NCBI RefSeq assembly: GCF_038002825.1
Contig: NZ_JBBODF010000001.1
Span: 2,790,001-2,854,000, forward strand
Length of the DNA: 64,000 nt
Reading direction: 5' to 3'
DNA from: Paenibacillus sp. FSL H8-0048
Lineage (GTDB): Bacteria; Bacillota; Bacilli; Paenibacillales; Paenibacillaceae
Of this stretch, positions 52,289 to 55,500 are shown in pieces. The first letter of the stretch is position 1. Every line of letters begins with the position of its first letter. A model generated the notes under the pieces. It ran no database searches. It had not been told where the DNA came from and worked only from the letters and a program-made list of their open reading frames with translations. A program made the position numbers and the translations under genes.

Positions 52289-53248
52289 TTGAACCTGCAT
52301 CAGCAAAAAAAAGAATTTGAAGCAACAAAAACTTTTTATGAAAGCGCAACCCTTTCCTTTAAAAACGTGGACGGATTTGATGTTTATAATATTTCAATAC
52401 CTTTTGAAAGGGAGGGTAAGCGTTACTTGTTCGGCCGGGTAGAACGCCGGGAGGAATGGGCCCGATCCTGGGTCCGTCTGTTCGAGGAAACAGGCCAGGA
52501 TGAGTGGACACTGGTGGAGAACAGCATGATCTATACGCTGGAGGACCCGTATATCACTGAAATAGGTGATGAGCTTGTACTGGGCGGAACGCATGTGCAA
52601 TATCAAAGCGGCAAATACAGCACGTATTTCGGTTATTTTTACCGGGGGACGGACCTTCACGACTTGTACTACTTCACTACAGGTCCCAACAAAATGAAGG
52701 ATATCCGCCTTGTTGCTCTGGCGAACGGCAGAATCGGCGTCTTCTCGCGTCCGCGTGGCCATGAGGTGAAGGGCCAATATGGCAGCGAATCGATGATCGG
52801 CTTCACGGTGATTGACAAGCTGGAGGATTTGACCGCTGAAGTCATTGAGAATGCCCCGTATATTCATGGTATCTTCGGAGCAGGCGAATGGGGCGGCGTC
52901 AATCAGGCGTACCTGCTGAGCAGCGGCAACATCGGGATCATCGGCCATATTTGTTATTCGCATCAGGAGGAGAACGGGCAGGACATCAAGGTCTATATGA
53001 ACATGTCCTTCATCTTCGATCCCGTGACCCGGGAATCCCATGACCTGCATCTGATCGGAAGCCGCTCCTGCTACCCGCCCGGACCTGCCAAGGCCCCGTA
53101 TTTGACGGACTGCGTCTTCTCTGCGGGGATTGTGATGCGTGAGGATGGCAAGGCCGATCTGTACAGCGGTGTTGGCGATTGCCAGGCCGGACGGATTACG
53201 ATCGACTATCCGTTCGCATCTTACGGAAGCATTGTCAAAATAGATTGA
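52289..53248 (+). CDS. DUF1861 family protein (beta-propeller)
   Basis: A 319-residue soluble protein with repeated beta-rich segments (FDVYNISIPFEREGKRYLFG, ALANGRIGVFSRPRG, SFIFDPVTRESHD and DCVFSAGIVM). This matches the DUF1861 family, five-bladed propellers often encoded next to GH130 phosphorylases. The role is probably binding or cleavage of a mannoside but is not established. The start is TTG at 52289 with AAAGGAG 10 nt upstream. It lies between the lipoprotein and GH130 genes. Confidence 0.72.
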   Translation: MNLHQQKKEFEATKTFYESATLSFKNVDGFDVYNISIPFEREGKRYLFGRVERREEWARSWVRLFEETGQDEWTLVENSMIYTLEDPYITEIGDELVLGGTHVQYQSGKYSTYFGYFYRGTDLHDLYYFTTGPNKMKDIRLVALANGRIGVFSRPRGHEVKGQYGSESMIGFTVIDKLEDLTAEVIENAPYIHGIFGAGEWGGVNQAYLLSSGNIGIIGHICYSHQEENGQDIKVYMNMSFIFDPVTRESHDLHLIGSRSCYPPGPAKAPYLTDCVFSAGIVMREDGKADLYSGVGDCQAGRITIDYPFASYGSIVKID

Positions 53249-53304
53249 ACTTAAAATTCAAGTTAAAGGAAAAGCAGTTCCACACTCAAGGAGGATATTC
53301 AACA

Positions 53305-54315
53305 ATGAATGATAACAATACACCCATCATAGGAGCTTTGGCATCCAGTCCCCTCATCCGCCGTCATCCGGCTAACCCTGTGCTGGATGCGGCGCGGGTC
53401 CCTTACCCCACCGCCCTTGTATTTAACGCGGGAGTGGTGAAGTTCGGCGGCCGTTATGTGATGGTATTCCGTAATGACTACGGCTCACTCGACAAGCAGA
53501 CTCTTGAGCCGTCTCATACAACGGATCTCGGTATCGCATTCAGTGAAGACGGCATCCACTGGACGGCCGGGCCGAAGCCGGTGTTCAAGCTGAAGGACGA
53601 AGAGTTCGTGCGCGGATATGATCCGCGGCTGACGGTGATCGATGGCCGTTGCTACATGTGCTTCGCTGTAGATACGCGGCATGGCATCCGGGGAGGAATC
53701 GCAGTCACGGATGACTTCGAATCCTTTGAAATCTTAAGCTTGTCCACGCCGGACCTGCGGAATATGGTGCTGTTCCCGGAGAAGATCAACGGCAACTATG
53801 TGCGGCTGGAGCGGCCGTTCACCGTATACAGCCGCGGTGGCTTGGACCGGTTCGACACCTGGATCGCGGAATCACCGGATCTGATCTACTGGGGACGGTC
53901 GGAGCTGTTGCTGGCGGTGGAGCAGGTACCGTTCGCCAATGACAAGATCGGTCCGGCAGCGCCACCGGTGAAGACGGATAAGGGCTGGCTCACCACCTTC
54001 CATGCCGTGGATCTCGATCCCGCCAGAGGGAAGAACGGCTGGGAGCCGTCCTGGAAGAAGCGGTATACCGCAGGTATTATGCTGCTTGACCTGAATAATC
54101 CCAAGAAAATTCTCGGGATGAGCGCATCGCCGCTGCTCGCTCCTGAAGCCCCCTACGAAACAGACGGCGGCTTCCGCAATGACGTCATCTTCCCCGGCGG
54201 CATGATCCTGGAGGACGATGGCGAAGTGAAAATCTATTACGGCGCCGCCGACACCGTGGAATGCCTGGCTACGGCACATGTGGACGATTTGATCAGGCTT
54301 TGTTTGGGGCAGTAA
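53305..54315 (+). CDS. GH130 beta-mannoside phosphorylase
   Basis: A 336-residue five-bladed propeller enzyme. The catalytic Asp of GH130 is expected in GYDPRLTVIDG (D106), with phosphate-binding Arg and His residues in VRLERPF and TFHAVDLDP. GH130 enzymes phosphorolyse beta-1,4-mannosyl bonds (mannosylglucose, mannan or N-glycan fragments) to mannose 1-phosphate. ATG 53305 has AAGGAGG upstream; the longer frame to 53179 overlaps the previous gene. With the ABC importer it suggests uptake and phosphorolysis of mannosides. A strong terminator follows. Confidence 0.9.
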   Translation: MNDNNTPIIGALASSPLIRRHPANPVLDAARVPYPTALVFNAGVVKFGGRYVMVFRNDYGSLDKQTLEPSHTTDLGIAFSEDGIHWTAGPKPVFKLKDEEFVRGYDPRLTVIDGRCYMCFAVDTRHGIRGGIAVTDDFESFEILSLSTPDLRNMVLFPEKINGNYVRLERPFTVYSRGGLDRFDTWIAESPDLIYWGRSELLLAVEQVPFANDKIGPAAPPVKTDKGWLTTFHAVDLDPARGKNGWEPSWKKRYTAGIMLLDLNNPKKILGMSASPLLAPEAPYETDGGFRNDVIFPGGMILEDDGEVKIYYGAADTVECLATAHVDDLIRLCLGQ

Positions 54316-54348
54316 AGATAGGTGGCCGCTCTGGCCTCCTGACAGAAG

Positions 54349-54387
54349 CGGGTATCATCCTTAAATGAGGATGATACCCGTTTTTTT
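54349..54387 (+). terminator. Terminator of the mannoside operon
   Basis: CGGGTATCATCC (54349-54360) pairs with GGATGATACCCG (54369-54380) around an 8-nt loop, followed by seven T. Confidence 0.92.
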
Positions 54388-54390
54388 AGA

Positions 54391-54760
54391 CTAGTGAAGC
54401 ATCAGATTTAAAAGGTTGAATAAGCTTGTGAAACTCAGGGGCTTGTGTAATAAAACCCTATCATCCCAAAAAATCTAACGGACCGAAGAGACCTTATTCC
54501 CAGGAGAACCCCATCTTTTGCAGCGTAACGGACTCAGGCGACCTTATCGTCTTTCTGCGAGACGTTTTGGAGCTGAATTCCACGGATAAGGTCCTTGCGG
54601 TCCGTTAATCGCCCAAGTGACGACTTTCTTCCCGGATAAGAGCCCCTCAGTCCGTTACGCTAAGCCAAACACCCCTGAAGAACAACGCCCGCTTGGAAAA
54701 AGATGCAATTTAAAAGTGAATTGCGTCTGCTCCACTATTTTAAATCTGATAAGCTACTAG
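54391..54760. repeat. Inverted-repeat-bounded intergenic element with four TAACGGAC units
   Basis: The 441-nt gap after the terminator has no gene. Its ends are 23-nt imperfect inverted repeats: CTAGT then ATCAGATTTAAAA (54391-54413), and the complement at 54738-54760, 18 of 23 positions alike. Inside are four copies of a 24-25 nt unit TAACGGACYnnnnGRCCTTATYC: 54476-54500 and 54526-54549 direct, 54583-54607 and 54633-54657 inverted. The right end overlaps the last codons of the next gene. It resembles a MITE-like or intergenic repeat; no transposase is seen. Confidence 0.55.
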
Positions 54761-55401
54761 GCTTCAACCGCTTGCGGTAACGTTCTTTCGTACTCCTTAT
54801 ATAACGCATAACGCTGGACGCCTCTCGAAGCCTCAACTGCTTCCCTGGCATACTTGACCGCAAGCTCATTGTTGCCGGCTTTCCGTTCAATTTCTGCAAG
54901 CACTACTGATCTCATCCACGGCTTCCGGATTGAACTCAAATGTTCCCGCGCCTTAGCGCTTTCCCCGCCCTCCAGCAACAGAGCCGCTTCATAGTACGCC
55001 CGGTAATCGGCATGACGGATATGCGGGACGGCTTCCTGAACAGCAGCCATGTCTTTGCGGTACCATCCGTAAGCCGCCTTGTACGTTGCCTGTACCGCCA
55101 CCTGTTTATGCTTGCTCATCAGCTTCTCCATGACCGTTGCCGCTTCATCCTCAAGCCGGTTCGCAAGAACATACTGAATATACAATGCAGGATTGTTTTT
55201 CTGGCTGCGTAAAAAGGACTCCACACGGTCCACACGCTTGTCCAAAACTGCCGGATAATAGAATTGGATTGTAAAAACAATGAGAGTAGCCACCACAGCG
55301 CCTACTACAATCAGGATGGGTGAATAGTCATTGAATAATACGAATAAGACAAACAAGAACAGCATGAAATAAACAGCAATGCTCCAGCGATGGCGTTTCA
55401 T
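54757..55401 (-). CDS. Membrane-anchored hypothetical protein with TPR-like region
   Basis: A 214-residue protein. Two N-terminal membrane helices (about 8-22 and 27-47) are followed by a cytoplasmic helical part with TPR-like pairs such as AAYGWYRKDMAAVQEAVPHI and AEIERKAGNNELAVKYAREA. ATG 55401 has AAAGGAG; the longer frame to 55449 lacks one. It is convergent with the mannoside operon and divergent from the SLH amidase. Its 3' end runs into the inverted-repeat element. Function unknown. Confidence 0.75.
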   Translation of the reverse strand: MKRHRWSIAVYFMLFLFVLFVLFNDYSPILIVVGAVVATLIVFTIQFYYPAVLDKRVDRVESFLRSQKNNPALYIQYVLANRLEDEAATVMEKLMSKHKQVAVQATYKAAYGWYRKDMAAVQEAVPHIRHADYRAYYEAALLLEGGESAKAREHLSSIRKPWMRSVVLAEIERKAGNNELAVKYAREAVEASRGVQRYALYKEYERTLPQAVEA

Positions 55402-55500
55402 TATAAATCTCCTTTGCGTGCAAAAATCCCATTTGAAATATTGTATCACATTCCATAATCTATCAGCAGAATATATATATAACTCAAAATGTTAATTAAC

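Follow-up and report, generated by a model that had tools for sequence, protein, structure and literature searches.

A non-autonomous miniature element in Paenibacillus sp. FSL H8-0048 and the four-unit core that it carries

The window analyzed here is a 64,000-nucleotide stretch of the Paenibacillus sp. FSL H8-0048 genome. Positions 54391 to 54760 form a block with inverted ends and four internal repeats. The question raised by this locus is what kind of element the block is and what its repeats represent. The initial annotation, which was made from the sequence alone, took it for a gene-free, MITE-like mobile element and gave a structured RNA as the alternative. It proposed a genome-wide count of the internal unit and folding of the RNA, and held that a lack of presence variation among relatives would speak against its reading.

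A 370-bp insertion at a TA dinucleotide

The insertion starts with CTAGTGAAGCATCAGATTTAAAA at 54391 and finishes with the inverse of this sequence, ending CTAG, at 54760, so the inverted terminal repeats that had been described are borne out. The terminal arms of 54391-54760 are 26 nt long and 77% complementary. The terminal inverted repeats (TIRs) themselves are approximately 21 nt, with matches at 54392 (+) and 54739 (-). The features of the insertion are:

54391..54760, no strand: whole insertion, CTAG to CTAG, based on its ends, its copies in the own genome and empty sites in four relatives
54392-54393 and 54758-54759: duplicated target TA
54392..54412, plus strand: left terminal inverted repeat, TAGTGAAGCATCAGATTTAAA
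54739..54759, minus strand: right terminal inverted repeat, TAGTAGCTTATCAGATTTAAA read on the minus strand

Positions 54391-54756 contain no ORF of at least 80 aa, which agrees with the gene-free block of the initial annotation. A 391-bp block gave 29 BLAST pieces in the own genome, corresponding to 26 distinct places when three row pairs were counted as one place each. The block had matches in 16 of 100 genomes of the genus at E ≤ 0.001, own genome included.

The window flanks were searched in six relatives. Both flanks were joined in four of these (G067, G084, G085, and G050), with the element absent and a single TA present, and presence therefore does vary among relatives. Only the left flank aligned in G086 and G043, making these two uninformative for an empty site. 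The junction reads AACTATGCT in the relatives and ACTAG-element-CTAGGCT in the own genome, which indicates that the TA was duplicated. The right TA of the element is part of the stop codon (TAG) of ORF 54757-55449 on the minus strand, and the earlier remark that the element ends within the last codons of the neighboring gene was correct. This ORF is not truncated, as the element-free relatives also have a TAG stop at this point in the alignment. At an element site in G151 the flanks join in G148, where A-runs blur the target duplication. Based on the TIRs, the TA duplication, the copies at 26 places and the empty sites, the block at 54391-54760 is a non-autonomous MITE, in support of the mobile element first suggested. 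The 370-bp insertion at the TA dinucleotide took place after the own lineage split from these relatives.

The mobilizer of the MITE is probably a transposase of the IS630/mariner type, judging from end sequences; the MITE would be moved in trans by such an IS630/Tc1-mariner-type enzyme. An IS630-family locus in G050 (PF13358, 90.5 bits) is bounded by TAGTACCTTGACC... ends. Compared with the common MITE end TAGTACCTTATCAG..., the outer nine bases are all equal (9/9) and 16 of 22 are equal overall. No autonomous IS630 copy with ends identical to those of the MITE was found. An autonomous partner sharing the TIR of the MITE was not detected in the own genome, where no TIR pair lay 1-4 kb apart, and the TIR was absent from the own-genome IS630 copies L388 and L393. 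Four TIR-bounded repeats were present on contig C1 of the own genome at 4383237-4383599 (L056), 5644965-5645327 (L057), 7044745-7044979 (L059), and 3075123-3075925 (L058). They have the same CTAGTA...ATCAGATTTAAA ends as the window MITE and different interiors, which points to a larger group of MITEs that share a single type of end. Elsewhere in the window, a stretch of approximately 35 nt before a plus-strand ORF (53240-53274) occurs at more than 20 places in six relatives and is a short dispersed repeat.

A four-unit core with a much wider distribution than the MITE envelope

A conserved core of 182-183 bp lies inside the MITE. It is comprised of four 22-bp near-palindromes of the form TAACGGAC-N6-GNCCNTTA in the order ++--, spaced 50/61/50 bp. 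In the window these are:

54476..54657, no strand: conserved four-unit core, spacing here 50/60/50 (family consensus 50/61/50)
54476..54497, plus strand: unit 1, TAACGGACCGAAGAGACCTTAT
54526..54547, plus strand: unit 2, TAACGGACTCAGGCGACCTTAT
54586..54607, minus strand: unit 3, TAACGGACCGCAAGGACCTTAT
54636..54657, minus strand: unit 4, TAACGGACTGAGGGGCTCTTAT

The two direct and two inverted units of the initial annotation were thus found at 54476+, 54526+, 54586-, and 54636-. TAACGGAC-N8-CCTTAT is matched exactly by three of them and with a single mismatch by the fourth (GCTCTTAT). The proposed genome-wide count, using the unit pattern with a flexible spacer, gave 31 matches in the 7.46-Mb own genome and 0 with the reversed-pattern control.

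Spacing was examined with a free-spacing scan (35-65/40-81/35-65 bp) of loci collected by criteria other than spacing. Among 131 distinct elements, many of them related to one another, the first distance was 50 bp in 113, the second 61 bp in 116 and the third 50 bp in 111. When all elements, pattern-fetched ones included, were reduced to less than 70% mutual identity, 45 were retained. The spacing was exactly 50/61/50 in 33 of these and off by 1-2 bp in one spacing in the remaining 12.

In 108 units from 27 representatives G5, G6, A7, and A21 were invariant, TAACGGAC was nearly invariant and the right half was relaxed. Inner units were less variable than outer units. Conservation was zero beyond the core edges, and the letters of spacers and flanks were otherwise barely conserved. 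The conserved trait is geometry, with four words, seemingly on one face, over approximately 18 helical turns and nearly everything between them lost. The usual definition of a small bacterial repeat is by its sequence or a hairpin; here it is geometry that is conserved.

AC was the commonest word in 189 of 197 four-site hits. Whole elements switch the unit word. GGTTG is used in L222, L223, L372, and L105, and GGAAC in the units of L346 and L351, loci of P. timonensis and P. mellifer. In these, TAACGGTTG or TAACGGAAC replaces TAACGGAC in the 50/61/50 layout (L222:333-515, L223:3666-3848, L372:5128, L105:1239; L346:1300 and 6719, L351:2835). Tandem pairs of core elements 244-426 bp apart were seen in L291, L322, L332, L110, L131, and L053.

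The core can be separated from its MITE envelope and has a much wider distribution, which the initial annotation, having seen the four repeats inside the MITE, did not notice. The single-unit pattern was present in 177 of 394 genomes of the family and in 13 of its 19 genera. At least 10 unit matches were found in 40 genomes, with a range of 0 to 255 (maximum in G151) and no more than 4 per genome for the reversed control. Three half-sites at exact spacing were scanned for in 84,980 bacterial and archaeal species, one genome per species, and at least 120 stretches were returned. All 120 stretches listed were titled Paenibacillus, Fontibacillus, Cohnella, or Paenibacillaceae bins. The three-site pattern had no match in plasmid and phage collections. 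One viral contig matched, L375 (IMGVR_UViG_2881766583_000004), which could be the host flank of a prophage.

In distant genomes of the genus the match was restricted to query bases ~96-311 and the flanks differed. The core is found again between unrelated flanks, its remaining sequence having diverged, and the envelope differs between clades. The core family of G151 (e.g., L158:2493-2770) has another envelope, which has a small GC hairpin, AACGCCTGACGGCGT, at its start and lacks clear TIRs. Mobility of the bare core alone was considered and is not claimed here. Eighteen of 236 compared elements looked solo, and the clearest, L022, was a deletion derivative of the full MITE by comparison with G086 and G084. 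An autonomous copy with genes between units 2 and 3 was also sought. A listing of lone unit pairs covered 42 loci, and those larger gaps that were opened (L175, L176, L177, L208, and L210) held ordinary IS elements.

Helical phasing, IS insertions and folding

The AT content of the spacers, with units masked, peaked at a period of approximately 10 bp in 33 exact-spacing representatives (power 123.9 compared to a shuffle mean of 0.72; reached by 0 of 1000 shuffles), a set that includes loci fetched by exact spacing and is thus selected for spacing, not for AT phase. The best fit was 10.1 bp (bootstrap 10.05-10.10, 0.05 grid), and 10.15 across the whole core. All 33 representatives were in phase on leave-one-out analysis. 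The window element is also AT-phased, with a projection of 8.5 (set median 10.9). The phasing stops at the core edges, and the AT signal of the 30 nt beyond each edge is flat.

Split BLAST matches revealed four core elements in G084 that were interrupted by IS elements (L175, L176, L177, and L208). In each, an inner unit is interrupted by an IS3-type element flanked by a duplication of 3 bp (unit bases 10-12). A further insertion in L176, of an IS4-type element, lies in unit 4 and is flanked by a duplication of 9 bp (bases 7-15). All five IS insertions in G084 have their center at base 11, which is the dyad of TAACGG-N9-CCGTTA. An IS110-type transposase gene was seen beside rearranged element pieces in L210 (G050:C17:82000-86000), with breakpoints at or near units. 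The family names IS3, IS4, and IS110 are assigned here from protein motifs. The core offers a way to study why two families of IS elements target an identical base pair.

The units could instead be hairpins in a transcript, making the core a structured RNA or a bidirectional transcription terminator. The folding that had been proposed gave low energy on both strands, with a mean z over 33 representatives of -5.1 on one and -5.4 on the other, which would be compatible with a role as RNA or as single-stranded DNA. The consensus fold pairs the outer and inner unit halves (alifold -13.2 compared to -0.04 for column shuffles), and elements lie mostly downstream of genes. However, such energy is expected on both strands of any block with inverted repeats of 8-22 nt. 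The compensatory changes that a conserved fold would leave were not in excess at pairable positions over direct pairs (81 representatives). Shared unit changes numbered 8 each for the direct pairs 1-2 and 3-4, compared to 9, 9, 8, and 8 for the inverted pairs 1-4, 2-3, 1-3, and 2-4. Base 16, which would pair with A7, was T in just 16 of 262 units. The top mutual-information pairs include position 9 of units 1, 2, and 3 with one another, among them the direct pair 1-2. Rfam 15 had 0 matches up to E 10 in window positions 54000-55200, and helical AT phasing has no RNA reason. The structured-RNA alternative of the initial annotation fared poorly on these grounds, and an RNA or terminator is considered quite improbable.

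Changes of specificity are concerted across units and involve direct repeats as often as inverted ones, which is how sites for one protein would be expected to behave. This concerted specificity, the AT phasing, the fixed spacing and the IS insertions at the dyad argue for a putative nucleoprotein platform at the DNA level rather than an RNA.

Proposed role and comparison with known systems

The explanation towards which we lean has two layers: a MITE probably mobilized by an IS630-type transposase, and within it a four-site core that would assemble a single nucleoprotein complex, most likely aiding spread. Each unit would be the site of a protein dimer, with TAACGGAC as the strong half, GNCCNTTA as the weak half and the dyad at base 11. 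The four sites would lie on one face of a bent or wrapped helix and the core would assemble one complex on them. Its likeliest use would be in spread of the element, as an internal assembly or enhancer site for a transposase or for a host bending protein. The main alternative use is a host function such as nucleoid organization. An essential host role is not favored because copy number varies widely between genomes, with 0 to 255 unit matches in each.

A further reading is more tentative, and we hold it as possible but rather doubtful. The core may be a portable DNA-wrapping platform, a dyad-symmetric site of 18 turns with a 10.1-bp phase, bound by an undescribed Paenibacillaceae protein family on four co-evolving sites and carried through the family by different MITEs. 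Its paralogous specificities (GGAC, GGTTG, and GGAAC) would then be separate platform lineages.

A neutral account would make the core a passenger, an old piece of one MITE family whose fixed spacing reflects recent common descent. The close relationship of many copies within a genome is in line with this, as is the variation of the envelope between clades. It is difficult to reconcile with the 45 elements below 70% identity that keep the architecture (33 exactly, 12 within 1-2 bp) while spacer letters and flanks show almost no further conservation, and we think it improbable. The two-layer explanation is retained. Should the core promote transposition, it would make the MITE unusual in having an internal assembly site; should it be bound by a host protein, it may mark an unrecognized nucleoid factor, in species whose unit matches reach more than 200 per genome. 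The core offers a direct handle on a putative DNA-binding protein in a large, well-sequenced family of soil bacteria. No published description of the core was found in open-access papers, the literature covered.

Genomic context was examined for 75 elements with enough flank, from a set of 120, using a crude ORF caller. One of the 75 was inside a long ORF. Neighboring genes were convergent for 27, co-directional for 43 and divergent for 5, compared to 89, 193, and 90, respectively, of 372 background gaps. Elements are thus rare between divergent genes (5/75 compared to 90/372). This context fits promoter avoidance and a transcript-end role alike.

The MITE is of a known kind. The core is REP-like in being intergenic and an IS target, yet it lacks an adjacent RAYT and the gyrase period. 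REP/BIME-like repeats are intergenic palindromes which bind gyrase or host proteins and serve as IS targets, and IS1397 is an example of an IS that inserts into them. The core shares the character of an extragenic near-palindrome hit by IS elements, and is seldom between divergent genes. To our knowledge four sites at fixed spacing are not a REP layout, and we know of no relationship between the core sequence and REP/BIME. The core always has four sites, ++--, at 50/61/50 with a 10.1-bp AT phase, and among the listed scan matches it was in Paenibacillaceae only. Insertion at a fixed point, the palindrome center, is reported for REPs (PMC1525189), and gyrase cleavage sites are reported in E. 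coli BIME-2 (PMC6379681). The E. coli gyrase motif (PMC6379681) resembles the core in being a long dyad-symmetric site with phased GC/AT content. It differs in its 130 bp and its 10.75-bp repeat in two 47-bp arms; the core has a 10.1-bp period throughout, 183 bp and four specific 22-bp words. Spacer power at 10.75 bp was 1.4% of the maximum, and the strong gyrase site, with its 10.75-bp GC periodicity in two arms, does not fit the core. Membership of the REP/BIME class is considered unlikely.

A REPIN-type miniature element moved by a REP-associated tyrosine transposase (RAYT, Y1_Tnp) is given very little credence. REPINs are likewise miniature, with short inverted doublets, conserved end words and a spacer of fixed length (PMC3116915). 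They have two words where the core has four, and they show compensatory changes (PMC3116915), of which the core units have no excess. None of 28 Y1_Tnp loci from eight genomes had a unit within ~1.5 kb, and a RAYT flanked by the repeat was rejected on this basis. Four of 12 unit-bearing genomes had no Y1_Tnp match and yet carried 31 (G060), 67 (G299), 28 (G286), and 45 (G139) unit matches.

Among the closest known systems are the bacterial MITEs of the IS630/Tc1-mariner superfamily. The window element is likewise short and free of coding sequence, with TIRs, a TA target duplication, multiple copies and polymorphic presence. It differs from such MITEs in holding a helically phased core of 183 bp that recurs in other envelopes.
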